A DNA stretch of 64,000 nucleotides. It comes from Ensifer oleiphilus (GTDB lineage: Bacteria > Pseudomonadota > Alphaproteobacteria > Rhizobiales > Rhizobiaceae). Below, piece by piece: positions 9,206-45,631 of this stretch; the first letter of the stretch is position 1; the number at the start of each line of letters is the position of its first letter. The notes under the pieces were generated by a model. It was not told the origin of the DNA, did not search any database, and saw only the letters and a program-made list of their open reading frames with translations. The DNA is taken from positions 558,001 through 622,000 of the forward strand of contig NZ_JABWDU010000001.1 in the NCBI RefSeq assembly GCF_013371465.1. The letters run 5' to 3'. Both the position numbers and the translations under genes were made by a program.

Positions 9206-10630
9206 ATGCGGATTGTGGGCGTTATCGACATCGGCAAGACCAATGCCAAGGTCGCAGCGGTTGATCTCGATCGCTTCGAAGAGATCGCTGTGCGAAAGAC
9301 TGCAAACGGTGTCGTCCAGGGCTATCCGTACCCGCATTTCGATGTCGACCGTCTCTGGGCTTTCGTGCTCGACAGCTTGAAGGCGCTCCATGCCGAACAC
9401 CCCATAGAGGCGATCTCGATCACCACCCACGGCGCGACGGCGGTCGTTCTCGACCAAGCAGGCGGACTTGCCTTGCCCGTGCTCGACTACGAATTTGGCG
9501 GGCCGGATACTCTGTCGGAAGCTTATGAGCGCGTTCGCCCGCCCTTTGCCGAAACCGGTTCGGCGCGCCTGCCGATGGGACTGAATGTTGGCGCGCAACT
9601 GTTCTGGCAGCAGCAGACCTTTGCCGATGCGTTCGCCAGGGTCACGACAATCCTGACCTACGCGCAATACTGGACTTTCAGGCTGACCGGCATCCGCGTC
9701 AACGAACTGACCTCGCTCGGCTGCCACACCGATCTCTGGAACCCGACGGCCGGCACGTTCTCGACGCTGGTGGAAAGCCAGGGGTGGGGCCAACTGTTCG
9801 CGCCGGTTCGCAAGGCTAACGATATCGTCGGTGCGTTGCTGCCTGAGCTTTGCGCCGCCACCGGCATTCCTGTCGGCACGCCCGTCTATTGCGGCATCCA
9901 CGATTCCAACGCATCGCTGCTGCCGCACCTCTTGACCCGCAAGGCGCCTTTCTCGGTCGTGTCGACCGGCACCTGGGTGGTGATGCTGGCGGTCGGCGCT
10001 GACACGGTGACGCTCGATGAACGCCGCGACACGCTGATCAACGTCAACGCACTCGGCGACCCGGTTCCCTCGGCGCGCTTCATGGGCGGTCGCGCCTTCT
10101 CGCTGTTGCTCGGCGACGGCGCGGCGTCCACCTCGTTCGAAGACGAGCAGGCCGTTATTGCGGCCGGGCACATGCTCTTGCCTTCGCTTCCCGAAGGCTC
10201 CGGGCCTTTCCCGTCAGCCAGGGCCCGTTGGACGGTGGATGAAGAGAAGCTGACGCCAGCCGCCAAGGTTGCCGCCGTGTCTTTCCATTTGGCCCTGATG
10301 ACGGCGACTTGCCTCGATCTTATCGGTGCGCGCGGGGATATTGTCGTCGAGGGGCCGTTTGCCGCAAACGCTGCCTATCTGCGCATGCTTCAGGCAGCAA
10401 CGGGACGCCCGGTCCTTGCTGACAGCCGCAATGTGACCGGCACCAGCCTCGGAGCTGCAAGCCTTGTCGACGGCCGCCATGTGCGCACCGGAGCGCAAGC
10501 CTTCGCCGGCCCCATGCCGGAGAGTTTTGTGCGCTATGCGCAAGACTGGCGCGCGCTGACGAAACGCCATGTGCAGCAGGGCAATGACGAAGGTCGAGGT
10601 CGGCTTGGGGAGAGTAACGGCGTCGCGTGA
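9206..10630 (+). CDS. rhaK: Rhamnulose kinase-type sugar kinase (FGGY)
   Basis: 474 residues of the FGGY carbohydrate-kinase fold. The N-terminal phosphate loop reads VIDIGKTNAKVAAVD, there is a typical SITTHGATAVVLD segment, and the catalytic Asp region is YCGIHDSNASLLP. The ATP-site glycines are in SVVSTGTWVVML. It is the last gene of the rightward rha operon. In R. leguminosarum RhaK is reported to be needed both for catabolism and for activity of the transporter, which fits its place in this operon, though that link cannot be read from the sequence. Confidence 0.88.
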   Translation: MRIVGVIDIGKTNAKVAAVDLDRFEEIAVRKTANGVVQGYPYPHFDVDRLWAFVLDSLKALHAEHPIEAISITTHGATAVVLDQAGGLALPVLDYEFGGPDTLSEAYERVRPPFAETGSARLPMGLNVGAQLFWQQQTFADAFARVTTILTYAQYWTFRLTGIRVNELTSLGCHTDLWNPTAGTFSTLVESQGWGQLFAPVRKANDIVGALLPELCAATGIPVGTPVYCGIHDSNASLLPHLLTRKAPFSVVSTGTWVVMLAVGADTVTLDERRDTLINVNALGDPVPSARFMGGRAFSLLLGDGAASTSFEDEQAVIAAGHMLLPSLPEGSGPFPSARARWTVDEEKLTPAAKVAAVSFHLALMTATCLDLIGARGDIVVEGPFAANAAYLRMLQAATGRPVLADSRNVTGTSLGAASLVDGRHVRTGAQAFAGPMPESFVRYAQDWRALTKRHVQQGNDEGRGRLGESNGVA

Positions 10631-10666
10631 AAGACGCCTGTGAGAAGACGAAGCGTGTTCTTCCGC

Positions 10667-10780
10667 TCAGAAAACCGAGCTGCGGTTTGCCGAACGGTTA
10701 TGCTCGAGATTGAGCACGATGGATACGGCCATCATCGTCAGGATTGCTGTGAGTGCGGCGCCAATTCCAAGAACAATCAT
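10667..10780 (-). CDS. Possible small single-span membrane protein (37 residues)
   Basis: A short frame reads leftwards from ATG 10780 to a TGA at 10667. The peptide starts MIVLGIGAALTAILTMMA, continues hydrophobic to about residue 23 and ends in a polar tail of about 14 residues (NLEHNRSANRSSVF). GGGAA stands about 7 bases before the ATG. The frame fills the start of an otherwise empty 665-base gap and is convergent with rhaK. A single transmembrane span with an outside polar tail is what is visible; no function can be given. Confidence 0.4.
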   Translation of the reverse strand: MIVLGIGAALTAILTMMAVSIVLNLEHNRSANRSSVF

Positions 10781-11045
10781 TGTTCGTTTCCCGTCAGCGC
10801 ATCATCATGATTGCGCTTTGCTTGCTGCAAAGGTTTATTCCGCGCGATCCGCGCCGACTTCACTTTCGCTTCGATACGCGAGCGCAAGTAGAAGTACAAT
10901 TCTAAACTCTTGTGAGTGAAAACCTGTTGAAATTCGAGGCTAATAGTGCGGCATTGCTGCGCTGCAAAAACAGTGCCCGAAAACGTCCGGCGAATTTTAG
11001 TGATTCCGGTTACAGGCTATCAACCGTTAACCTTCAAGCAAGGAA

Positions 11046-11053
11046 TTAACCAT
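11046..11053 (+). promoter_or_regulatory. CtrA-type half-site (TTAACCAT) upstream of che operon
   Basis: Exact TTAACCAT, preceded at 11027 by a second TTAACC. The same octamer occurs upstream of flaA and flaB and, inverted, upstream of rem. CtrA binding is inference from the known alphaproteobacterial consensus. Confidence 0.5.
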
Positions 11054-11101
11054 AAACATTGTCCCACACGTCGGAATGGGAAAAATTCACAGTCTCCTCA
11101 A

Positions 11102-11141
11102 GGCATGATGCCGCCCCGCCGTACCGGTTCCGGTCCGGTAT
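11102..11141 (+). promoter_or_regulatory. Late-class flagellar/chemotaxis upstream motif, che operon copy
   Basis: The order of blocks GGCATGATGCCG, then TACCGGT, then CCGGTAT recurs upstream of flaA, flaB and flaC. It ends about 155 bases before the icpA start. A conserved class III upstream motif is known in S. meliloti; this is likely its counterpart. Confidence 0.6.
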
Positions 11142-11296
11142 CGATTCTTCACCGAATTTACTTGCGGGATGGACGATAGCAGACGCCCAAGCGGCGGGGG
11201 CTGATCGCATCGATGTGGCGTGCACGTCCGGTGGACCGTGGACTGTCCTGATCCTCCCCAGGTGAATTCCAAGCATGAAAAACCGGGGATTGAGCG

Positions 11297-12919
11297 TTGA
11301 GGCAGGAAGCATCGTCAGAACAGGCAAGGAAGGGCCAGGCAGGCAGTCTGCTGGAGCGCTTGCGTTTTGCCGGGCTCGACGACGAGAGCTGTTCCCGCGT
11401 CCGTGACACCCGGCATAAGCTTTCCCCCCGCATCGACGCAGCACTTCGCGATCTTTTCCAGCGCCTGCAGAGTTATCCCGACGCAGCCCGGCACTTCGAT
11501 AGCGACCGGCAGCTCGAGCGGCTGCAGGACATCCAATCCTCGCACTGGAACGTGCTGACCGACGCGCGTTTCGATGGCCTCTATGCTGAGCGCGTCAAGG
11601 TGCTTGCCGATACTTCGAACCGCATGGGCCTCGATCCACGTTGGCAGATGGCAAGCCATGCAGTCGTGCTTGAGCACCTGGTTATCGGCCTCATTGAAGA
11701 GGCTTGGCCGAAGTCCTTCCTGCCGATGGGCAGAGGACGACGCAAGGAACTGTGCGATCTGGTCGCGGCGCTTGTCCGCACCGTCTTCGTCGATACCGAG
11801 ATCGGCGTCTCGCTCCGCTTCAACGCCCTGCGACAGCAGCACCAGCGCCAGCTCGCCGACCAGCACAGTGCCGACGAGCAGGCTGTAACGACGCTTTTCG
11901 GCGATTTCGCCAAGGGCTTGGGCGAGGGGGACCTCGGCGTGCGCCTGTCCGAGAACGCACCCGACGCCTACCAGCCGATCGTTGCCAGCCTGAATGCGGC
12001 GCTCGACACGATCCAGCAGAGCCTGCAGTCTGCCGATCAGCGCGGCCAGGCGGCCGAGACTCTTGTCGGTCGTTTGCGCGAAGGTGCCGCCGGTTTCTAC
12101 GATAAGGCAACCGCGGAAGCCGATGCCCTCTCGGGCCAGATTGCGGCCCTTTCCGACATGACCGAACGCATGGCCACAGGCTCGAACCGCATCAGCGCCA
12201 CCGAGATGAAGGCCAACGAGACGCGGGTTGCCGTCGAGCGCAGTGGCGAGATCGCCGGCCAGGCCATTTCCGCCATGGCCGACATCGAGGCATCGGCCGA
12301 GAAGATCGGCCAGATCATCGGCGTCATCGATGAGATCGCTTTCCAGACCAATCTCTTGGCGCTGAACGCCGGCATCGAGGCTGCAAGGGCGGGCGACAGC
12401 GGTCGTGGCTTTGCCGTCGTTGCCCAGGAAGTGCGCGCGCTTGCGCAGCGCTCCGGCGAGGCAGCGCGCGAAATCAAACAACTGGTAACGGGCACCAAGT
12501 CGCAGGTCGAGACCGGCGTCGAGATCGTCGGCCGCACGCAGGATGCGATCAGCAGCATCGTCCAGCAGGTCACATCGATCAATGCCGCGGTCTCCGGCAT
12601 CGCCCGCGAAGCCGAGCAGCAAGTCGGCGACCTCAAGGGCGTAACATCCGACATCGGGGCGATCTCGCACGCCGTCAAGGCAAGTGCGGCGATGGCGGGC
12701 GAGACGGTCCGCTCTTCCGACGATCTGCACAATGTCATCGTCGAGCTTGGCGAGACGATCCGCAGGTTCCGTGTCGAACGTCGCCACGCGGTTTCACCAA
12801 CACCGACTGCCAGCCAGGGACGCCGCCTCGCGGCTCCTGTGGCCACGGTCGAAGACGAAATGGCGACGCCGTTGTTCGATGACGGCCCGCAACGTCAGTT
12901 CGCCGGTTGGCAACGCTGA
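11297..12919 (+). CDS. icpA: Soluble globin-coupled chemoreceptor, first gene of che operon
   Basis: 540 residues. Residues about 15-170 look like a protoglobin sensor (a helix-rich region with a His in [10 protein letters not shown], about residue 120, as candidate haem ligand). About 195-240 resemble a HAMP-like linker, and about 245-500 are an MCP signalling domain with the hairpin tip [20 protein letters not shown] near 345-365. There is no transmembrane segment, so it should act in the cytoplasm. The frame has no ATG before about residue 110; TTG 11297 is chosen because GGGGA lies 7 bases upstream and an in-frame stop is at 11291. Oxygen or redox sensing is inference from the fold. Confidence 0.85.
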
Positions 12920-12960
12920 TCCCAGGGACACTCAAGAGTTAGCAGTCGAGGAAAACAGGA

Positions 12961-13254
12961 ATGGCCAGCAAGAAGACCGCCCGCAAGACGCTCAGCCTCG
13001 CTCCGGTGTTGGACCTGAACGAAGCGACGACGTTGCATGAGAAGCTTTTGGGCCTGAAGGGCAGCGATCTCACGATCGATGCCTCGGCGGTCGAGCGGGT
13101 GGGAACGCTTTGTGTCCAGGTCCTGATGGCTGGTGCCAAGACTTGGGAAGAAGAACATTTGTCTTTCACCTTCAGCAAGGTGTCGGACGCTTTCGAGAAA
13201 ACGACACAGCTCATCGGGGTCGACATCGACCACCTGATGGCAAAGGAGATTTGA
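12961..13254 (+). CDS. cheS: CheS, STAS-domain protein of the che operon
   Basis: 97 residues, one STAS-like domain (DLTIDASAVERVGTLCVQVL is the central strand-helix unit). In S. meliloti the gene at this place, CheS, binds CheA and speeds loss of phosphate from CheY1, the phosphate-sink regulator. The position directly before cheY1 (3-base gap) supports the same role here. The Ser/Thr that anti-sigma antagonists phosphorylate is not obvious, so switching by phosphorylation is doubtful. Confidence 0.82.
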   Translation: MASKKTARKTLSLAPVLDLNEATTLHEKLLGLKGSDLTIDASAVERVGTLCVQVLMAGAKTWEEEHLSFTFSKVSDAFEKTTQLIGVDIDHLMAKEI

Positions 13255-13257
13255 AGA

Positions 13258-13623
13258 ATGAAAAAGCGAGTTCTGACAGTCGACGACTCCCGGACGATCC
13301 GGAACATGCTTCTGGTCACGCTGAACAATGCCGGCTTCGAAACGATCCAGGCGGAAGACGGCGTCGAGGGCCTCGAGGTTCTTGAGGAAGCCAATCCCGA
13401 TGTCATCGTCACCGACATCAACATGCCGCGTCTCGACGGCTTCGGCTTCATCGAGGGCGTGCGCAAGAACGACCGCTACCGCGCTGTGCCGATCCTGGTG
13501 CTGACCACGGAAAGCGACGCTGAAAAGAAGAACCGTGCCCGTCAGGCCGGTGCCACCGGCTGGATCGTCAAGCCGTTCGACCCGACCAAACTGATTGATG
13601 CAATCGAGCGCGTAACGGCCTGA
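13258..13623 (+). CDS. cheY1: CheY1, response regulator (probable phosphate sink)
   Basis: 121 residues, a stand-alone receiver. The acidic pair D9-D10, acceptor D53 (VTDINMP), hydroxyl residue in VLTTES (about T84) and K105 (VKPF) are all present. By analogy with S. meliloti it drains phosphate from CheA and does not drive the motor. It lies between cheS and cheA. Confidence 0.9.
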   Translation: MKKRVLTVDDSRTIRNMLLVTLNNAGFETIQAEDGVEGLEVLEEANPDVIVTDINMPRLDGFGFIEGVRKNDRYRAVPILVLTTESDAEKKNRARQAGATGWIVKPFDPTKLIDAIERVTA

Positions 13624-13642
13624 AGTCCGAGGATAGCCTCCA

Positions 13643-15931
13643 ATGGATATGAACGAAATCAAAGAGATCTTCTTCCAGGAATGCGAGGAACAACTCGCCG
13701 AACTGGAATCGGGTCTGCTGAAGCTCAATGATGGCGACCGCGATCCGGAAACGGTCAATGCCGTGTTTCGCGCGGTGCACTCGATCAAGGGTGGCGCCGG
13801 TGCTTTCGGGCTCGACGACCTCGTCTCCTTCGCCCACGTGTTCGAGACGACACTTGATTGCGTTCGTTCCAACAGGCTCGACCCCGGCCCTGAGGTTCTG
13901 AAGGTGATGCTGAAGTCGGCCGACGTGCTCGCCGACCTGACGAACGCTGCCCGCGATGGCGGCAGTGTCGACGAGGCGCGCAGCCGCCAGCTGATCAAGG
14001 AGCTCGAGGCGCTTGCCAATGGCGAAGTGCCCCAGGCATCGTCCGTAGCCGAGCCGGTCGCCAAGGCCGCCCCGGTTGCCGCAGCACCCGTCGTCAACGA
14101 CGAAGGCTTCCAGCCTGTCGCCTTCTCCTTCGACGATTTCGAGACGGACGAGCCGGCCTTGATGGACTTGCCGACCTACGAGATCGTCTTCAAGCCGAAA
14201 TCCGATCTCTACGCCAAGGGCAACGACGCGACTTTGCTTCTGCGCGACCTCTCGCGCCTTGGCGAGATGAGCATCCATTGCGACATGGACGCGCTCCCGG
14301 CGCTCGATCGCCTGAGCCCGGAAACGGCCTACTTCTCCTGGAAGGTGTCGCTGAAGACGGACAAGGGTGAAGACGCGATCCGCACGGTTTTCGAATTCGC
14401 CGAGTGGGATTGCGACCTCGACGTTTCGCGGGTCTCGGGCGATGCCGCCCCTGTCGGCGAGGAGCTGCCGATGCAGCCGGTACCGTTCGATCTGTCGATC
14501 CTCGACGACGAGCCGGCTGGCCCCATCGGCGTGATCGAGGAAGAAGAACAACTGGCAGCACAGCAGGAGATCCGCAACGCGGCCGTCGCTGCTGCCGGTA
14601 CCGCCAGCAACGTGTTGCAGATGGCCCAGTCCGCCGCCCGCGCACCCGCTGAAAAATCGGCCGGCGCCGCCGCCAGTGCTGCTGCTCAATCCGCAGCCGC
14701 TCAGCAGGCAGCAGCGTCCGCTGCGACACCGACCATCCGCGTCGATCTCGATCGCGTCGACCGCCTGATCAACCTCGTCGGCGAACTCGTGATCAACCAG
14801 GCAATGCTGTCGCAGAGCGTGGTCGAGAACGACGCCAACGGCACCTCGTCGATCAACATGGGCCTCGAAGAGCTGCAGCAGCTCACCCGCGAGATCCAGG
14901 ACTCGGTGATGGCGATCCGCGCGCAGCCGGTAAAGCCGGTATTCCAGCGCATGTCGCGTATCGTTCGCGAAATCGCCGACATGACGGGCAAGTCTGTCCG
15001 CCTCATCACCGAGGGTGAAAACACCGAAGTCGACAAGACGGTCATCGACAAGCTGGCCGAACCGTTGACGCACATGATCCGCAACGCCGTCGACCACGGC
15101 CTTGAAACGCCCGAGAAGCGTCTCGCCGCCGGCAAGAGCGCCGAAGGCACCGTGCGCCTGACCGCAAAGCACCGTTCGGGCCGCATCGTCATCGAGCTTG
15201 CCGACGACGGTGCCGGCATCAACCGCGAGAAGGTGCGCCAGAAGGCGATCGACAACGATCTGATCGCCGCGGACGCCAATCTCTCCGACGAGGAGATCGA
15301 CAACCTGATCTTCCACGCCGGCTTCTCGACGGCCGACAAGATCTCCGACATCTCCGGCCGCGGCGTCGGCATGGACGTGGTCAAGCGCTCGATCCAGGCG
15401 CTCGGCGGCCGTATCAACATCTCGTCGAAGCCTGGCCATGGCTCGGTCTTCACCATGAGCCTGCCGCTGACGCTGGCCGTTCTCGACGGCATGGTGGTCA
15501 CGGTCGCCAACCAGACGCTGGTGGTGCCGCTGACGGCGATCGTCGAAACACTGCAGCCGGAAGCCGCCGCAATCCATTCCTTCGGCTCCAACCAGCGGCT
15601 GATTTCGATCCGCAACTCCTTCTGCCCGCTGGTCGATGTCGGTCGCATCCTCAACTTCCGCGCCAGCCAGGCAAACCCGGTCGAAGGTGTTGCGCTTCTG
15701 GTGGAATCGGAAGGTGGTGGCCAGCGCGCACTGATGGTCGACGCCATCCAGGGCCAGCGCCAGGTCGTCATCAAGAGCCTCGAGGCCAACTATACGCACG
15801 TGCCGGGCATTGCAGCCGCCACCATTCTCGGCGACGGCAGGGTGGCGCTCATCCTCGATGTCGACACGATCGTGGCCGCCTCGCGTGGCCAGTCGCTGAA
15901 GCCTGAAATGTCTCTCGCTGCTGCTGGATGA
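13643..15931 (+). CDS. cheA: CheA, chemotaxis histidine kinase
   Basis: 762 residues in the classical five-domain order. P1 carries the phospho-accepting H46 in [12 protein letters not shown]. The P2 regulator-binding region lies around 180-290. A long Ala/Gln-rich linker (about 310-365) precedes the P3 dimer helices. P4 is the ATPase, with the N box ([11 protein letters not shown]), G1 ([10 protein letters not shown]) and G2 (GRGVGMDVV). P5 is a CheW-like domain at the C-terminus. It autophosphorylates and passes phosphate to CheY1, CheY2 and CheB. Its stop overlaps the possible cheW start. Confidence 0.96.
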
Positions 15932-16407
15932 ATGTGATGACCTATGCCGCAAAGAATCTGACCACGGACGGACGAGAGCTGATCGCTTTCCGCGTCGGCG
16001 ATCAGGAATTCTGCGTGAACGTGATGTCCGTGCGCGAAATTCGCGGGTGGACACCGGCGACTGCGATGCCGCATGCGCCGTCCTACATGCTCGGCATCAT
16101 CAACCTGCGCGGTGCGGTGTTGCCGATCGTCGATCTGTCGGCACGCCTCGGCATGAAGCCGGCCGAGCCGACCGTCCGCCACGTCATCATTGTCGCCCAG
16201 GTGAAGAGCCAGGTGGTCGGACTGCTCGTTGACGCCGTCTCCGACATCCTGACGATCACCGACGACAAGATCCAGCCGACGCCGGATGTCATCTCGTCCG
16301 AATTCGAAAGGAGCTTCGCCCGTGGCGTGCTCGCGATCGAAGGTCGGTTGATCTGCCTAATAGAACTCGAATCTGTCTTCCCGCAGGAAGAAAGGGAAGC
16401 AGCATGA
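15928..16407 (+). CDS. cheW: CheW, receptor-kinase coupling protein
   Basis: 159 residues from ATG 15928, which overlaps the cheA stop by 4 bases; ATG 15937 (MTYAAKN) is an alternative with a slightly better upstream GGA. The domain shows [21 protein letters not shown] and the conserved [12 protein letters not shown]. It bridges receptors and CheA. The stop overlaps the cheR start. Confidence 0.93.
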
Positions 16408-17312
16408 GAAACCAGGCCGTTCTCGAACAGAAGCAGTCGCCCGACGAATGCCTGGCAAGCGGCGAGTATCCGCTGACGCGCCGCGATCTCAATGAAATCG
16501 CAGCGATGATCTACGCCGATGCCGGCATCTACCTCAACGAAACCAAGGCATCCCTGGTCTATTCCCGGCTGTCGAAGCACATCCGCAACCTCGGTCTCAA
16601 GGGCTTCCGCGAATACTGCCAGCTGGTCTCTTCGCCTGCGGGTGCCGCCGCCCGGCGCGATATGCTCTCGCACTTGACGACGAACTTCACGCGCTTCTTT
16701 CGCGAGAACCATCACTTCGAGCATCTGAAGACGGATGTTCTGCCGGAGTTGATTGCCCGCGCCAAGGCCGGAGGTCGCGTGCGCATCTGGTCGGCCGCCT
16801 GTTCGGACGGGCAGGAACCCTACTCGATCGCGCTGACGGTGCTGTCGCTGCTGCCGAATGCGGCGGACTACGACTTCCGCATTCTCGCCACCGATATCGA
16901 TCCGAAGATCCTGGCGCTGGCACGGGCCGGTGCCTATGACGCTACCGCACTCGAAACGGTCAATCCGGCCATGCGCAAGCAATGGTTCGACGAGGTCAAT
17001 TCCGGCGGCCGCTTCAAGTGGCAGATCGACGATCGCGTCAAGAAGCTCATCACCTTCAACGAACTGAACCTGATGGCGCAATGGCCGTTCAAGGGACCGT
17101 TCGACGTGATCTTCTGCCGCAACGTCGTCATCTATTTCGACGAGCCGACCCAGATGAAGATCTGGTCGCGCTTCGCCGGAATGCTCGGCACCAACGGCCA
17201 TCTTTACATCGGTCATTCCGAGCGCGTGTCGGGCGACGCCAAGTCGCAGTTCGACAATATCGGCATCACCACCTATCGCCATACCGGCAAGTTTCATGGA
17301 GGACGGGTATGA
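16404..17312 (+). CDS. cheR: CheR, chemoreceptor methyltransferase
   Basis: 302 residues. The N-terminal helical domain contains [15 protein letters not shown]. The SAM-binding domain has [17 protein letters not shown], the acidic ATDID and the conserved [13 protein letters not shown]. It methylates receptor glutamates for adaptation, working against CheB. Overlaps of 4 bases at both ends show tight coupling with cheW and cheB. Confidence 0.95.
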
Positions 17313-18367
17313 CCGCACCCGCTCGTGTTCTCGTCGTCGATGATTCAGCCACCATGCGTGGCCTGATCACGGCAGTTCTCAATTCCGATCCGGGCGTAAC
17401 CGTCGTCGGCCAGGCGGCCGATGCGATGGAGGCGCGCCAGGCGATCAAGCAGCTCGATCCCGATGTCGTGACCCTCGACATCGAGATGCCGAACATGAAT
17501 GGCCTGGAATTCCTCGACAAGATCATGCGCCTGCGTCCGATGCCGGTCATCATGGTCTCGACGCTCACGCACAAGGGGGCCGAGGCAACAATTGCAGCGC
17601 TTGAAATCGGTGCGTTCGACTGCGTCGGAAAGCCGCTTCCGGGTGACCCCAATCCTTTTGCCGGTCTCGTCGACAAGGTAAAGGCGGCCGCGCGTTCGCA
17701 GCGCAAGTTCATCATCACCGGCAACAAGACGGCAGCACCCGCTGCAGCCAATGCCAATGGTGCCTCTGACTATCGGGCAGGCCGCAAGATCATCGCGATC
17801 GGCGCCTCGACCGGCGGCGTCGAGGCCCTGATCACCGTGCTGCAGAAGTTCCCGGCAAACTGCCCGCCGACGGTGATCACGCAGCATATGCCGCACACCT
17901 TCACCAAGAGCTTCGCCGAGCGGCTCAATCGCCTATGCGCACCAACGGTGCAGGAAGCAACCGACGGCGCGCGGCTGGAAATCGGCAAGGTCTATCTGGC
18001 TCCGGGTGGCGAGCGTCACCTGCAAGTGGCCAATCCGACGGCACCGTGCTGCCGTCTGGTCGACCGAGATCCCGTCAACGGCCATCGTCCTTCGGTCGAT
18101 GTGCTGTTCGATTCGGTCGCCGAACTTGCCGGTCGCAATGCGATCGGTGTCATTCTGACCGGCATGGGCCGCGACGGCGCATCCGGTCTCCTGAAAATGC
18201 GGCATGCCGGAGCAAAGACCTTCGGCCAAAACGAAAAGACATGTGTCGTCTACGGCATGCCGAGAGTTGCATATGAATTGGGTGCCGTCGAAACGCAGCT
18301 CCCCCTCGGTTCCATCGGGGAAGAGATACTGAAGACAGCGGCGCTCCGGAAGGAAGGAAGCGAATAA
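17309..18367 (+). CDS. cheB: CheB, chemoreceptor methylesterase/deamidase
   Basis: 352 residues. The receiver domain has D57 (VTLDIEMP) and K108 (GKPLP). The C-terminal esterase has the catalytic triad S167 (GASTGG), H193 (ITQHMP) and D289 (GMGRDGA). ATG 17309 overlaps the cheR stop, and the protein then begins [14 protein letters not shown] as in the family; a longer in-frame extension upstream lies inside cheR and is not translated in all likelihood. Confidence 0.95.
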
Positions 18368-38798: not shown

Positions 38799-39536
38799 AT
38801 GATCCGGCTCATCGCCTTCATAGTCGCCATGACGGCGATGTCCGGAATTGCCGGCGCCCAGAGTTTTCCCTCTGACATCCTGAACACGCCTATCGACGGC
38901 TCTGCCGCGTCCTGGATCATCCGGACCTTCGGCCTTCTGACCGTTCTGTCGGTGGCGCCTGGCATCCTGATCATGGTCACCAGCTTTCCGCGCTTCGTGA
39001 TCGCGTTTGCCATCCTGCGCACCGGCATGGGTCTGGCGACGACGCCGTCGAACATGATCATGGTGTCGCTGGCGCTGTTCATGACGTTCTATGTGATGGC
39101 GCCGACCTTCGATCGTGCCTGGCGCGATGGCATCGACCCCTTGATGAAGAACCAGATCACGGAAACGGAGGCCTTGCCGCGCATCGCGGAGCCGTTCCGT
39201 GAATTCATGCTGGCCAACACCCGTGACAAGGATCTGCAGCTCTTCATCGATATCGCCAAGGAAAAGGGTCAGACCGTAGTCGTCGACGACAAGGTCGACC
39301 TGCGCGCCGTCGTCCCCGCCTTCATGATCTCGGAAATCCGCCGCGGCTTCGAGATCGGCTTCCTGATCATGCTACCGTTCCTGGTAATCGACCTGATCGT
39401 CGCCACCATCACCATGGCAATGGGTATGATGATGCTGCCCCCGACGGCAATCTCCTTGCCGTTCAAGATCCTCTTCTTCGTGCTGATCGACGGCTGGAAC
39501 CTGCTCGTCGGCAGCCTGGTGCGCTCATTTAGCTGA
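38799..39536 (+). CDS. fliP: FliP, flagellar export gate protein
   Basis: 245 residues. A cleavable signal peptide (MIRLIAFIVAMTAMSGIAGA) is followed by four membrane helices, with the conserved PGILIMVTSFPRFVIAFAIL and MMLPPTAISLPFKILFFVLI. It forms the export gate with FliQ and FliR, which are encoded 18-20 kb downstream. It is the last gene of the unit and converges with the GT41-like gene. Confidence 0.96.
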   Translation: MIRLIAFIVAMTAMSGIAGAQSFPSDILNTPIDGSAASWIIRTFGLLTVLSVAPGILIMVTSFPRFVIAFAILRTGMGLATTPSNMIMVSLALFMTFYVMAPTFDRAWRDGIDPLMKNQITETEALPRIAEPFREFMLANTRDKDLQLFIDIAKEKGQTVVVDDKVDLRAVVPAFMISEIRRGFEIGFLIMLPFLVIDLIVATITMAMGMMMLPPTAISLPFKILFFVLIDGWNLLVGSLVRSFS

Positions 39537-39844: not shown

Positions 39845-39872
39845 AAAAAACCCCGCCGTGTGGGCGGGGTTT
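39845..39872 (-). terminator. Rho-independent terminator of the GT41-like gene
   Basis: A 10-base stem AAACCCCGCC / GGCGGGGTTT with a 5-base loop, running on the minus strand into TTTTTT. It lies 46 bases after the stop of the minus-strand gene. On the plus strand the T-run is short, so it would serve fliP less well. Confidence 0.85.
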
Positions 39873-39917: not shown

Positions 39918-41843
39918 TTACTGTGCGAATGATCCCGTTCGTGCCGGCAGGGCCGGCACGTCGATGAGCGCGGGCTCCAAGCCGTTCCTGGCGCGCTCGG
40001 CCATCATCTCATAAGCTTGCTCGAGGTGGCGGCAGAAGCGCTCTGAGTCGAAGAGCGGCATCTGCATCCTGTTATCGGTGAGCCGCTGCCTGTACTCAGC
40101 GACCTTCGCGCGGTTCCCGTAAAGGGCGACCGCCTGCTCGATGTAGGCGTCGATGTCTGCGGTAACGAGTTCCGGCACGCCGATCGCGTGCAGCAGGCTT
40201 TCGCTGACGCGTGAGGCGAAGTGGGTGCCTTTGGGCGTCAGGACCGGCAAGCCCATCCACAGCTGTTCGGAGGTTGTGGTGTGGCCGTTACAGGGGAAGG
40301 TATCGAGGCCGAGATCTGCCGCCGGGATACGGCCGAGGTGCTTTTCGTAGTCGACCTTCGCGCAGAAGATGATGCGCTTCGTGGTGATGCCGTAGCTTTG
40401 GAAGCGCCGGAGAATATGAGCCTGGGCCTCGGGTTTCGGGCACATGAGCCAGAGTACGCTATCGGGGGTTCTGCGAAGGATCTCCGCCCATGCCTTCATC
40501 GTCTCAACCGTAATCTTGCGGTTGGCGTTGAACGAGGCGTAAACGAACGCGTCTTCAGGCAAACCGATCTCGGCGCGGCTCGTCGTTGCGGGCAGGGGCC
40601 GGCCGGCGGGGTCGTTCGGCTGGTAGGTCTCGGGCAACCGGCAGAACCGCTCATGGTAGTGTTCCTCGCTGCCATCGGGCAGGACGTAGTGGTCGCCGAT
40701 GATGTAGTCGAGGTCGGTGTTGACGGTGGTGCCTGGGAAGCCGAGCCAGGCGACCTGAACAGGGGCGACCTTGTGGTTGAGAATGGAGACGCGACTGTTC
40801 ATCGTGTGTCCCTTGAGGTCGACGAGAATGTCGATCTGTTCGTCGCGGATGGCCTGGGCAGCGTGCTCGTCGGAAAGGTGTTCGACGCGGACAATCCTGC
40901 CCCAGCTTTCCCGCCCTTGGCCGACGACCTTGAGATATTTCTCCGGCGTGTAGCAGAACAGGACGATCTCGAATTTTTCAGGATCATGGGCGGTCAGCAC
41001 GGCCCGCAGCAGCTTCATGGTGGCGTGCAGGCCCCAGAAGTCGTTGGACAGATAGCCGATCCGGATTTTCTTGCCCCAGCTATGCGGCATGGAGCGACGC
41101 TCCTTTGGCAGGCCGGGCGGGAATGGCTGATCGAGTGCTGCAGCCAGGCGGTTCAGCTTTTCGTCGCGGCACCAGTGGATATTGTAGAATGGCGTTTCCG
41201 CGCGCAGGAATTTGCTGTTGTTCGACTGAATCACGCGCTCCAGGGCCTGCGCATAGTTTTCGATTTCATTGAAGTTGTTCACTTCCTGCATGAAAACGAG
41301 ATAGGCGGACAAGAGGACCGGGTTCGAAGGCGTCCGCCGGAACAGATTGGTGACGATCTCGCGGTCTTCGTTGTTGCCGACGTCTGATGTCAGCAGCTTG
41401 GCCGCAAGCACCTGGTGTTCCTGCCGGGCGCTGGCCGAGAGCGTCGACTTGAAGGGGCCGAGAATGTCGGCCTGGTCGCGCTTCAGGAACAAGGTCACGA
41501 TGATGTAGGCAAGCTCGGGATCCGTCTTGGCCTGCTCGAGGAGGGGCCGGCCGAGGCTCAAGGCCTGATCGTCATTGCCGCAGGCGAAATGCAGCTTCAT
41601 GGCCTCGGCCAGGAAATGCTCCGAACGCAATCCGCCTTCTTCACCCGCCAGTTGATAGGCTTGCGCCGCATCGCTCCGGAAGCCGAGTTTCAGCAACACT
41701 TTCGCTAAAAGCGCATAGGTCTTGGCATCGCGGGTAAGATCGAGCAGCTGATTAAGGGAATCGAGGGCCTCGGTGTACTGGCCTTTTTGATACTGCCGCG
41801 AAGCGGAAGAGAAAATGGTGTGGGCGTTCAAGGGAAGCTCCAT
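39918..41843 (-). CDS. O-GlcNAc transferase-like glycosyltransferase (GT41/SPINDLY type)
   Basis: 641 residues. About 1-210 are TPR-like helical repeats (ASRQYQKGQYTEALDSLNQL, and following units). About 258-600 match the OGT catalytic region: IRIGYLSNDFWGLHATMKLL (H273), ILVDLKGHTMNSRVS, VQVAWLGFPGTT, VYASFNANRKI (K443, the UDP-contacting Lys position), YEKHLGR (H502) and LDTFPCNGHTTTSEQLW (H521). The Asp expected after CNGHTT appears as Glu (E526). ATG 41843 is used; a TTG at 41873 would add 10 residues, and neither has a strong ribosome site. It is divergent from flaA and convergent with fliP. Flagellin glycosylation is inferred from location only. Confidence 0.85.
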   Translation of the reverse strand: MELPLNAHTIFSSASRQYQKGQYTEALDSLNQLLDLTRDAKTYALLAKVLLKLGFRSDAAQAYQLAGEEGGLRSEHFLAEAMKLHFACGNDDQALSLGRPLLEQAKTDPELAYIIVTLFLKRDQADILGPFKSTLSASARQEHQVLAAKLLTSDVGNNEDREIVTNLFRRTPSNPVLLSAYLVFMQEVNNFNEIENYAQALERVIQSNNSKFLRAETPFYNIHWCRDEKLNRLAAALDQPFPPGLPKERRSMPHSWGKKIRIGYLSNDFWGLHATMKLLRAVLTAHDPEKFEIVLFCYTPEKYLKVVGQGRESWGRIVRVEHLSDEHAAQAIRDEQIDILVDLKGHTMNSRVSILNHKVAPVQVAWLGFPGTTVNTDLDYIIGDHYVLPDGSEEHYHERFCRLPETYQPNDPAGRPLPATTSRAEIGLPEDAFVYASFNANRKITVETMKAWAEILRRTPDSVLWLMCPKPEAQAHILRRFQSYGITTKRIIFCAKVDYEKHLGRIPAADLGLDTFPCNGHTTTSEQLWMGLPVLTPKGTHFASRVSESLLHAIGVPELVTADIDAYIEQAVALYGNRAKVAEYRQRLTDNRMQMPLFDSERFCRHLEQAYEMMAERARNGLEPALIDVPALPARTGSFAQ

Positions 41844-42025
41844 GGAATAAGCGCAACCGTTGTCACCGCGCAAGCCTGTGCAACGTCAATGTACCAAGAT
41901 ACCGTTTTGAAGCAGAAACCTTGCCCGAGGCGGGATTGCCGGGCGAATAGCGTATTGTTTTCCAATAAATTCAGTGTCGCCGAAGTCATTCTCGCGAGCT
42001 TGGGCGAAGCGAAAGTAACGTGCTG

Positions 42026-42033
42026 TTAACCAT
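42026..42033 (+). promoter_or_regulatory. CtrA-type half-site (TTAACCAT) upstream of flaA
   Basis: Exact TTAACCAT within TGTTAACCATAGG, 203 bases before the flaA ATG, in the gap shared with the divergent GT41-like gene. CtrA binding is inferred. Confidence 0.5.
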
Positions 42034-42085
42034 AGGATTTTGCTTCGAAAATATCTTGCCGCCTTAATGAAATCGCAAGCATTGG

Positions 42086-42100
42086 GGGTGATATTCACCC
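42086..42100. promoter_or_regulatory. 15-base palindrome in the flaA upstream region
   Basis: GGGTGA-TAT-TCACCC is a perfect inverted repeat of 6-base arms around TAT. It lies between the TTAACCAT box and the late-class motif of flaA. I do not see it before flaB or flaC. It could be an operator for flaA or for the divergent gene. Confidence 0.45.
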
Positions 42101-42148
42101 TCACATGACGGGTTTGGTTTCCTTCACTTGAGTGAGCGGAGCCGAGTG

Positions 42149-42200
42149 GCATGAAGCCGGTCCGTCATTACCGGTAGACGTTTTAGTCCGGTATGTCCCC
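42149..42200 (+). promoter_or_regulatory. Late-class flagellar/chemotaxis upstream motif, flaA copy
   Basis: GGCATGAAGCCGGTCCG, then TTACCGGT, then CCGGTATGTCCCC, ending 35 bases before the flaA ATG. The ACCGG/CCGGT arms could also pair as a hairpin if the stretch is transcribed. Confidence 0.65.
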
Positions 42201-42235
42201 AACCATGTAACCTTGTAATTTTGAGGGACAGTCTC

Positions 42236-43153
42236 ATGACTTCTATTATGACCAACAACTCGGCAATGGCCGCACTCTCCACGCTGCGTTCGATCAATTC
42301 CTCGATGGAAACGACGCAGGACCGTATTTCGTCCGGCTTCCGCGTTGGTAACGCTTCCGACAACGCCGCCTACTGGTCGATCGCAACGACCATGCGTTCG
42401 GACAACAAGGCCCTCGGCACCGTTCAGGACGCACTCGGCCTCGGCGCTGCCAAGACCGACGTTGCTTACACCGGCATGAAGGCTGCGATCTCGGTCGTCG
42501 ACGAAATCAAGGCAAAGCTCGTTGCTGCCAGCGAGCCGGGCGTTGACAAGTCGAAGGTCCAGAAGGAAATCACGCAGCTTCAGGATCAGCTGAAGAGCGT
42601 TGTCAAGTCCGCTGGCTTCTCCGGCGAAAACTGGCTCTACACCGCTTCGGGCGCAACCGCTCCGGGCACCAAGTCGATCGTCGGTTCGTTCAACCGCGAC
42701 TCCAACAGCAATGTCAGCCTGACGACGCTCGACGTCGACACGACCAAGACCATGCTGATCGACGAAGCTGCAACGGCAAACGGCCTGCTGACGGCAGAAC
42801 TCAAGGATGCAGGCGGCACGGCTATCTCTGGCGTCAGCGTTCTGAACCTCAACATCACTGCTGCCGACACGACCGCGCTGAAGAACTACCTCAGCGGTGT
42901 TGACACCGTGCTGAAGAGCATGACCGATGCCGCTTCGGACCTCGGTGCTGTCAACAAGCGCGTCGACCTCCAGAAGGACTTTGTCGACAACCTGATGGAC
43001 TCGATCGAATCGGGCGTCGGCAAGCTCGTTGATGCTGACATGAACGAAGAGTCGACCCGCCTGAAGGCCCTGCAGACGCAGCAGCAGCTCGGCATCCAGG
43101 CTCTCTCGATCGCCAACAGCAGCTCGCAGAACATCCTGTCGCTGTTCCGTTAA
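42236..43153 (+). CDS. flaA: Flagellin A
   Basis: 305 residues from ATG 42236, which has GAGGGAC upstream. The N-terminal D0/D1 region is MTSIMTNNSAMAALSTLRSI and the C-terminal D0/D1 ends QQQLGIQALSIANSSSQNIL, then SLFR. The central part (about 130-215) is short, so the outer domains are reduced; S. meliloti flagellins are longer as I recall. It differs from FlaB at 19 of 305 positions by my reading. It is likely the principal flagellin. Confidence 0.95.
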   Translation: MTSIMTNNSAMAALSTLRSINSSMETTQDRISSGFRVGNASDNAAYWSIATTMRSDNKALGTVQDALGLGAAKTDVAYTGMKAAISVVDEIKAKLVAASEPGVDKSKVQKEITQLQDQLKSVVKSAGFSGENWLYTASGATAPGTKSIVGSFNRDSNSNVSLTTLDVDTTKTMLIDEAATANGLLTAELKDAGGTAISGVSVLNLNITAADTTALKNYLSGVDTVLKSMTDAASDLGAVNKRVDLQKDFVDNLMDSIESGVGKLVDADMNEESTRLKALQTQQQLGIQALSIANSSSQNILSLFR

Positions 43154-43195
43154 TCGGTCCAGACACCGGCGACTTCGGTCCCGGTCTGCAATACG

Positions 43196-43227
43196 AAAAA
43201 CCGCGTCTCGATCGAGGCGCGGTTTTT
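43196..43227 (+). terminator. Rho-independent terminator after flaA
   Basis: Outer stem AAAAACCGCG / CGCGGTTTTT, with the inner TCTCGATCGAGG also able to pair, followed by CTTTT. It lies 42 bases after the flaA stop. Confidence 0.9.
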
Positions 43228-43269
43228 CTTTTGGCTATACGGTTTTTTGGGTCTCGGCTTCAACGTTCG

Positions 43270-43277
43270 TTAACCAT
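43270..43277 (+). promoter_or_regulatory. CtrA-type half-site (TTAACCAT) upstream of flaB
   Basis: Exact TTAACCAT, followed by TTAACCAA at 43311-43318 and a further TTAAC at 43324. Same class of box as before flaA and icpA. CtrA binding is inferred. Confidence 0.5.
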
Positions 43278-43338
43278 CTTGGTGTTTTCTATGCCTATCG
43301 AAACGGCGGGTTAACCAACAAGATTAACGCGTTAGCAG

Positions 43339-43382
43339 GCATGAAGCTGGCCGCCGTTTCCCGGTAATCCCGGAATGTCCCT
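43339..43382 (+). promoter_or_regulatory. Late-class flagellar/chemotaxis upstream motif, flaB copy
   Basis: GGCATGAAGCTGGCCG, then CCCGGTAAT, then CCGGAATGTCCC, ending 33 bases before the flaB ATG. The spacing between blocks is shorter than in flaA, while the blocks themselves are kept. Confidence 0.65.
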
Positions 43383-43415
43383 TTCAATCCAGAATTCCCA
43401 AGGGGCACTCAGCCA

Positions 43416-44333
43416 ATGACTTCTATCATGACCAACAACGCCGCGATGTCCGCACTCTCGACGCTGCGTTCGATCAATTCCTCGATGGAAATGACGCAGG
43501 ACCGTATTTCGTCGGGCTTCCGCGTTGGCAATGCTTCCGACAACGCCGCCTATTGGTCGATCGCAACGACCATGCGTTCGGACAACAAGGCCCTCGGCAC
43601 CGTTCAGGACGCACTCGGCCTCGGCGCTGCCAAGACCGACGTTGCTTACACCGGCATGAAGGCTGCGATCTCCGTCGTCGACGAAATCAAGGCAAAGCTG
43701 GTTGCCGCCAGCGAGCCGGGCGTCGACAAGTCCAAGGTCCAGAAGGAAATCACGCAGCTTCAGGAGCAGCTGAAGAGCGTTGTCAAGTCCGCTGGCTTCT
43801 CCGGTGAAAACTGGCTCTACACCGCTTCCGGCGCAACCGCTCCGGGCACCAAGTCGATCGTTGGTTCGTTCAACCGCGACTCCAACGGCGCTGTCAGCCT
43901 GACGACGCTCGACGTCGACACGACCAAGACCATGCTGATCGACGAAACCAACACGGCAAGCGGCCTGTTGACGGCAGAGCTTAAGGATGCAGGCGGCACG
44001 GCTATCGCCGGCATCAGCGTTCTCAACCTCAACATCACGGCTGCCGATACGACCGCGCTGAAGAACTACCTCAGCGGTGTTGACACCGTGCTGAAGAGCA
44101 TGACCGATGCCGCTTCGGACCTCGGTGCCATCGACAGCCGCATCGACCTCCAGAAGGACTTCGTCGACAACCTGATGGACTCGATCGAATCGGGCGTCGG
44201 CAAGCTGGTTGATGCTGACATGAACGAAGAGTCGACCCGCCTGAAGGCCCTGCAGACGCAGCAGCAGCTCGGCATCCAGGCCCTGACGATCGCCAACACC
44301 AACTCGCAGAACATCCTGTCGCTGTTCAAGTAA
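43416..44333 (+). CDS. flaB: Flagellin B
   Basis: 305 residues, same length as FlaA and about 94% identical. Most differences fall in the central region (the IDETNTASG and GAIDSRID segments) and at the last residues (TNSQNILSLFK). GGGG(CA) precedes the start. The DNA is also nearly identical over the first and last thirds, pointing to a recent duplication or ongoing gene conversion. It is followed by its own terminator. Confidence 0.95.
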   Translation: MTSIMTNNAAMSALSTLRSINSSMEMTQDRISSGFRVGNASDNAAYWSIATTMRSDNKALGTVQDALGLGAAKTDVAYTGMKAAISVVDEIKAKLVAASEPGVDKSKVQKEITQLQEQLKSVVKSAGFSGENWLYTASGATAPGTKSIVGSFNRDSNGAVSLTTLDVDTTKTMLIDETNTASGLLTAELKDAGGTAIAGISVLNLNITAADTTALKNYLSGVDTVLKSMTDAASDLGAIDSRIDLQKDFVDNLMDSIESGVGKLVDADMNEESTRLKALQTQQQLGIQALTIANTNSQNILSLFK

Positions 44334-44662: not shown

Positions 44663-45631
44663 ATGACCAGCATCATGACCAACACGGCCGCCATGGCCGC
44701 ACTCCAGACGTTACGCTCGATCAACACGAACATGGCCGAAGTGCAGGACAGGATCTCGTCCGGCTACCGGGTGCAGACCGCGGCGGACAATGCCGCCTAC
44801 TGGTCGATCGCAACCACCATGCGATCCGACAACGCCGCTCTGTCGACGGTACAGGATGCACTCGGCCTCGGTGCGGCCAAGGTCGATACCGCCTATGAAG
44901 CGATGAAAGCTTCCATCGACATCGTCACGGAAATCAAGACGAAACTGGTTGCCGCGCGCGAGCCAGGTGTCGACAAGCTCAAGATCAACAAAGAAATCAC
45001 CGAGCTGAAGAACCAGCTCATGTCTGCCGCGCAATCGGCGTCGTTCTCGAGCGAGAACTGGCTCTACAACACCAATACCGCCGCCGTCGGCACAAAGTCG
45101 ATCGTCGCCTCCTTCAACCGCGACGGAAACGGCAACGTCTCCATTACGACGCTTGATTTCGACACGGCGCAATCGATGCTGATCGACTCAGGCAGCTCGG
45201 CACGCGGCCTGCTGACCAGAGGCTATGATGCCGACGCGCTCCTGGGAACGCCGACCGGCACCGCGGCTCCGTACTATCTGATCGTCGCACCGCCCGCAGC
45301 CCCTCCGACCGGCACCGAAATCAAGCTGTCCGCATCCACCACGCCTGCCGACATGGACGCGATGATCCGCGTCGTCGACAAGATCCTTGGACAGTTGACG
45401 GATGCCGGCTCGACACTTGGTGCGATCACCAAGCGCATCGACATGCAGGAAAGTTTCGTCGCCAACCTGATGGATACGATCGACAAGGGCGTCGGCCGTC
45501 TTGTCGATGCCGATATGAATGAGGAATCGACGCGGTTGAAGGCGCTGCAGACGCAACAGCAGCTCGGTATTCAGGCGCTCTCGATCGCCAACACCAATTC
45601 CGAAAACATCCTGCGCCTCTTCCAGCAGTAA
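44663..45631 (+). CDS. flaC: Third flagellin, diverged
   Basis: 322 residues. The terminal regions match FlaA/FlaB (MTSIMTNTAAMAALQTLRSI; QQQLGIQALSIANTNSENIL), but the middle (about 185-225) is different and contains a Pro/Ala/Thr-rich segment (PTGTAAPYYLIVAPPAAPPT) absent from the other two. It is probably a minor filament subunit. Naming follows gene order in Rhizobium and Agrobacterium; equivalence to S. meliloti flaD or flaC is not settled. Confidence 0.9.
   Translation: MTSIMTNTAAMAALQTLRSINTNMAEVQDRISSGYRVQTAADNAAYWSIATTMRSDNAALSTVQDALGLGAAKVDTAYEAMKASIDIVTEIKTKLVAAREPGVDKLKINKEITELKNQLMSAAQSASFSSENWLYNTNTAAVGTKSIVASFNRDGNGNVSITTLDFDTAQSMLIDSGSSARGLLTRGYDADALLGTPTGTAAPYYLIVAPPAAPPTGTEIKLSASTTPADMDAMIRVVDKILGQLTDAGSTLGAITKRIDMQESFVANLMDTIDKGVGRLVDADMNEESTRLKALQTQQQLGIQALSIANTNSENILRLFQQ

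Follow-up and report, generated by a model that had tools for sequence, protein, structure and literature searches.

A TPR-GT41 glycosyltransferase gene beside the flagellin genes of Ensifer oleiphilus as a candidate flagellin O-glycosyltransferase gene of Rhizobiaceae

Background

The glycosyltransferase GmaR of Listeria is a GT2-type enzyme that also has an anti-repressor role. FlmG of Caulobacter crescentus requires pseudaminic acid and is composed of a TPR part, for which binding to flagellin has been demonstrated, and a glycosyltransferase (GT) part (PMC7591256). Among rhizobia, the flagellins of Rhizobium leguminosarum 3841 and VF39SM stain with Pro-Q Emerald, and the flagellin bands of strain 3841 run at about 35 kDa versus a predicted 31 kDa; MS/MS of R. 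leguminosarum flagellin in 2010, with a coverage of 18-46%, found no glycopeptide, and the authors, who discuss N-X-S/T sites and write 'possibly' glycosylated, name no enzyme for this modification in the available part of their paper (PMC2936354). Filaments of Agrobacterium sp. H13-3 are said to be glycosylated, with data not shown (PMC8310070). No publication connecting a GT41 gene with the flagellins of rhizobia was found in the open-licence PMC literature, and the accessible text of an A. fabrum motility screen makes no mention of glycosyl, GlcNAc, glycan, tetratricopeptide or TPR (PMC9812332).

Organization of the locus and domain structure of the GT protein

The window analysed, a stretch of 64,000 nucleotides of the E. 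oleiphilus genome, contains a gene (39918..41843, minus strand; ATG at 41843, stop codon ending at 39918) coding for a protein of 641 amino acids. It is proposed to be a TPR-GT41 flagellin O-glycosyltransferase gene based on its ORF, Pfam matches, synteny, tree and dN/dS, and is referred to as the GT gene below. The GT gene is convergent with fliP (38799..39536, plus strand; Pfam FliP) and divergent from flaA (42236..43153, plus strand), which is followed on the same strand by flaB (43416..44333) and flaC (44663..45631), all three with Pfam Flagellin_N/C matches and encoding the proposed substrates. This position between fliP and the flagellin genes, divergent from flaA, had been given in a preliminary description of the locus and was recovered with exact coordinates and with Pfam support for the neighbours. 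FlaA and FlaB are 94% identical, perhaps by a recent duplication or conversion (42236-44333). Between fliP and flaC, no glycan genes were found besides the GT gene, and the two GT41 matches in the genome both fall inside the same ORF, which makes it the sole GT41 gene found there. The gene is under purifying selection in the sequence pairs tested (dN/dS of 0.05-0.11 versus the five closest relatives and of 0.15-0.25 versus three further ones).

A GC-rich, terminator-like inverted repeat with its T tail on the minus strand is located between the fliP and GT genes (39848..39872); three sites of this type occurred in the region versus 3.0 expected in shuffles, so that such repeats are no commoner than chance and position is the sole support for this assignment. 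On its other side, the GT gene has a divergent intergenic region of 392 bp in common with flaA (41844..42235). In alignments, the flaA side of this region is highly conserved and the GT side carries a conserved CCTTGCC..AGGC block (41919-41931; aligned Ensifer and Sinorhizobium loci), which does not stand out in the window, where 12 matches with at most two mismatches compare with 7.9 expected.

The catalytic domain (amino acids 257-614; 40002..41075, minus strand) matched the Pfam model PF13844 (Glyco_transf_41) with an E value of 1.1e-69 and 235.5 bits versus a cut-off of 25, and the solved structures closest to the GT protein were OGTs (E 3.5e-60, and 4.4e-91 with a 17-member profile). As the preliminary description had claimed, H273, K443, H502 and H521 are kept, since they align with the catalytic residues H558, K842, H901 and H920 of metazoan OGT. 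H273, K443 and H521 are invariant among 17 aligned sequences, that of the window included, and H502 varies. Similarly, the previously noted Glu in place of the OGT Asp after the NGHTT motif, Glu526, is invariant in 17 out of 17 aligned sequences (window's included), and an invariant tryptophan, W224, stands near the aligned position of an OGT histidine, H498. These alignments identify the catalytic half of the protein as a GT41 domain of the OGT type, whose catalytic residues line up with those of OGT. As for the N-terminal region (amino acids 1-250; 41094..41843, minus strand), all Pfam TPR models remained below their cut-off with the single GT protein (best 0.0017). However, a profile built from this region in 12 members of the family matched consensus TPR proteins in the PDB at an E value of 3.8e-8, and eight of the 12 members matched TPR_19 at E≤0.01, indicating that this part is probably a genuine but diverged TPR region. 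Hence, of the TPR plus GT41 architecture described earlier, the GT41 half was recovered directly and the TPR half by the profile; a role of the latter in flagellin binding is proposed by analogy with FlmG (PMC7591256). No DNA-binding or other regulatory domain was found among the Pfam and NCBIfam matches of the GT protein, nor did it match the Maf domain (PF01973; Pfam). PF01973 was also unmatched in the whole genome, which is a weak check, as the control matches only in archaea.

Linkage to flagellin genes and co-divergence with FlaA

In many Rhizobiaceae, the GT gene has a syntenic link with flagellin genes. A scan of named genomes confirmed 340 relatives, the best 80 of which were used for locus counts. 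The closest named match was that of Ensifer adhaerens Lc04 (98%; the window's own record may be absent from the listing), and, within the genus, each of the 16 genomes searched carried the gene. The preliminary description had suggested a survey of the rhizobia carrying the gene at this place; in 76 of the best 80 of the 340 relatives, a divergent flagellin gene began at a distance of 304-490 bp from the aligned start of the GT gene. Of the four exceptions, three end at contig ends (L046, L072 and L087), and the fourth, a Shinella locus without flagellin (L065), still lies in a flagellar cluster (FlgK, FlgD, FlaF and FlbT; Pfam). Furthermore, fliP was missing at eight of the 80 loci and lay beyond the flagellins at two more (L083 and L100), and flagellin was retained in nine of these ten loci, so that the GT gene is more constantly associated with flagellin than with fliP. 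A quick tree of 122 GT41 domains, the root of which is for drawing only, grouped the flagellin-linked rhizobial GT genes into one clade of 44 rows (SH-aLRT 99). A flagellin was present in the fetched stretch for 39 of these rows, the others being L005, L072 and L087 (contig ends), L065, and L012; the last, read in a wider stretch (L212), was judged to be away from flagellar genes.

Four loci were picked for their unusual flanks, and ten proteins beside their GT genes were scanned against domain models. Matches over the cut-off comprised a GT2, a GT1/methyltransferase fusion, an FkbM methyltransferase, a GSCFA, a glycerophosphotransferase-like and two GT1-like proteins, the rest being one methyltransferase match below the cut-off and two proteins without match. 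The flanks of these four chosen loci look like a glycan island and, in some relatives, adjoining transferases or methyltransferases could extend or methylate the sugar that the GT protein would add.

The divergence of the GT protein tracks that of FlaA beyond what other flagellar proteins predict. Indeed, mirror-tree analysis gave a partial correlation between GT and FlaA of 0.565 (permutation p 0.002; 59 loci) when FliL, FlgH and MotE were controlled for, versus 0.053 for FliP-FlaA and 0.110 for GT-FliP with the same control and loci. Control for FliP alone, with a partial correlation of 0.777 (62 loci), was replaced by this combination because FliP evolves slowly; loci lacking any needed gene were dropped, which brought 80 loci down to 62 and 59, respectively. 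Mere linkage ought to couple FliP to FlaA also, and co-transfer of the neighbouring GT and flaA genes could be a source of the co-divergence.

Eight loci without the GT gene (L174-L181), chosen for FlaA similarity, had fliP followed by a flagellin gene on the same strand, with a gap of 162-533 bp in seven of them and of 1,134 bp in L181. Their fetched stretches contained no GT41 match, and GT41 paralogues occurred elsewhere in three of the eight genomes (G204, G094 and G169). The place of the GT gene is thus simple in the gene's absence. An adjacency of fliP and flaA, given in the preliminary description for S. meliloti, was in this way encountered in eight gene-less relatives.

Proposed function of the GT protein

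The GT gene quite probably encodes a soluble, cytoplasmic flagellin O-glycosyltransferase. This interpretation, already favoured in the preliminary description, is strongly supported, albeit indirectly, by the synteny in 76 of the 80 loci, the single clade, the co-divergence with FlaA, the glycan-gene flanks, and the glycostained flagellins reported for R. leguminosarum 3841 (PMC2936354), in which strain the orthologue of the GT gene was retrieved (L067). The TPR part would bind FlaA, FlaB and FlaC before export, and the GT41 part would move a sugar from a nucleotide sugar onto Ser or Thr residues in the exposed middle of flagellin, after which the glycosylated subunits would be exported and build the filament. 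The flagellin centre had the same Ser/Thr content whether the locus carried the gene (0.250; n=29) or lacked it (0.247; n=4), in a comparison for which the pattern kept 29 flagellins from 80 loci, four from six and four from two.

It is unlikely that flagellin is not the main target and that the protein acts on another flagellar or cytoplasmic target or controls flagellin expression in the manner of GmaR. The published bifunctional case of Listeria GmaR and the divergent intergenic region that GT and flaA have in common would fit such a role, but no DNA-binding domain figured among the Pfam and NCBIfam matches, the constant neighbour of the GT gene is a flagellin gene and not a regulator gene, and GT divergence tracks FlaA. 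The GmaR-like dual function offered as a second idea in the preliminary description thus finds no support, no regulatory domain having been found among those matches.

GT41 relatives in the Alphaproteobacteria

GT41 relatives (E≤1e-20) were present in 129 of 385 genomes of the class, most matches covering the GT domain only, so that the rarity in bacteria initially ascribed to TPR plus GT41 proteins finds no confirmation as far as GT41 in this class is concerned. Outside the Rhizobiaceae, at least ten genomes of seven families carried a GT41 gene within 6 kb of a flagellin gene (L132, L138, L145, L161, L162 and L164-L168), which should be read as a minimum number rather than as a rate, as these loci were chosen after the flagellin positions had been seen; three tested loci had flbT nearby. 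Two further arrangements were observed in Rhizobiaceae. A sister rhizobial group consists of full-length TPR-GT41 genes beside znuA (L150-L154, L019, L021, L024-L027 and L032), with a znuA-like match within 1.5 kb in seven of 13 loci, one more (L018) showing it in the wider stretch L151, and with Pfam run on L153 only. Tandem arrays of five, two, four and three GT41 genes (L146, L147, L148 and L149, respectively) occur in other Rhizobiaceae, no FlaA-like match being found in their fetched stretches.

The sister group beside zinc-uptake genes indicates that the GT41 family can have other partners and, together with the clade member away from flagellar genes (L012/L212), would be consistent with a surface polysaccharide or another exported protein as target, the flagellar location being incidental. 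Such a target is nevertheless very unlikely for the window protein, given flagellin synteny in 76 out of 80 loci, held in nine out of ten loci with fliP absent or moved, and given that the solved GT41 relatives matched are protein-modifying enzymes.

NeuB, FlmG-like proteins and the donor sugar

One of the loci without the GT gene, L174, contained genes for NeuB, a DegT aminotransferase, a Polysacc_synt_2 dehydratase and a TPR protein, P0003, after the flagellin genes (10299-17919). Its sister locus L175 (2085-9693) contained a cytidylyltransferase gene as well, one further protein being matchless and one having a match below the cut-off. These sets are interpreted as a pathway of pseudaminic type located near the flagellin genes in one genus (two genomes). 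P0003 matched TPR models only (Pfam); it had no match to GT41 or any other GT family, nothing in NCBIfam or the PDB, and no significant similarity to the window GT protein (best E 2.4). P0003 appears to be FlmG-like in layout and context, from which a transferase role may be surmised. Of 247 family genomes, 19 contained a relative of P0003. Among the strong ones (E≤4.5e-87, own genome included), nine out of nine had NeuB at most about 6 kb away on their contig, and among the weak ones (E≥1e-27) one out of ten had NeuB, with the cut between both groups drawn after the gap had been seen. Compared with a NeuB background of 49 out of 247, the nine out of nine correspond to a P value of 2.5e-7, which ignores kinship, several of the genomes being from the same genus.

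None of the nine genomes with a strong P0003 relative carried a GT41 clade gene, which was present in 17 of the 247 family genomes based on own placement of 30 fetched loci (GT41 matches occurred in 63 genomes, those outside the 17 being paralogues or unplaced). NeuB was found in three of these 17 genomes, as expected by chance (P of three or fewer 0.55). In addition, NeuB (PF03102) had no match in the window's own genome, which is 99.94% complete, and among 50 named-locus genomes with an orthologue (50 of the best 80 loci), a set partly overlapping the 17, it was found in nine and absent from 41 (completeness not stated). R. johnstonii 3841 and four genomes closely related to that of the window were among the 41. 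The lack of NeuB in the own genome and in 41 of the 50 genomes suggests that the GT41 enzyme probably uses another sugar, without apparent dependence on nonulosonic acid. Given this absence and the family membership, the donor would most simply be UDP-GlcNAc or a related UDP-sugar. A flagellin glycosyltransferase using nonulosonic acid like Caulobacter FlmG is therefore most improbable, in spite of a TPR plus GT-B layout and a cytoplasmic logic as in FlmG (PMC7591256) and of NeuB in nine of 50 orthologue-bearing genomes, as the own genome lacks a NeuB match in a search that does match in Caulobacter, and NeuB in three out of 17 clade genomes equals the background, versus nine out of nine for strong P0003 relatives.

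There is an even chance that Alphaproteobacteria harbour two separately built TPR plus GT-B systems for flagellin O-glycosylation, namely the FlmG type, using nonulosonic acid, and a GT41 class that needs none and lies beside flagellin genes through the Rhizobiaceae, with a pseudaminic-type set instead in at least one rhizobial genus and the GT41 module re-aimed at a zinc-uptake locus. The GT protein represents a specific candidate enzyme for rhizobial flagellin glycosylation, for which a sugar not belonging to the nonulosonic acids is predicted. As a bacterial relative of OGT with a single substrate that is both abundant and known, it would be a useful model for studying how proteins are selected by TPR parts, and it bears on the presentation of flagellin to plants by root-associated bacteria.

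Comparison with known systems

The catalytic domain of the GT protein matched metazoan OGT, XcOGT and plant SPINDLY alike. It has the TPR plus catalytic layout in common with OGT, as well as four aligned residues (compared with metazoan OGT only), whereas its TPR region is shorter, Glu526 takes the place of Asp and W224 that of an OGT histidine, and its locus is flagellin-linked. The HMW1C/NGT N-glycosyltransferases show a distant likeness in the catalytic domain (NCBIfam NGTferase, 49 bits, far below the cut-off of 1000), and the neighbours of the GT gene are fliP and flagellin genes. With Listeria GmaR, the GT protein would have flagellin O-glycosylation in common, possibly with GlcNAc; in contrast to this GT2-type anti-repressor, it belongs to GT41 and shows no sign of a regulatory domain. 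FlmG of C. crescentus, compared by description only, has a TPR N-terminus and a GT-B C-terminus too, is soluble and modifies several flagellins (PMC7591256), as is proposed here for the GT protein. FlmG requires pseudaminic acid, whereas the genome with the GT gene has no NeuB match. The rhizobial enzyme thus apparently follows an FlmG-like plan with a GT41 engine and without nonulosonic acid.
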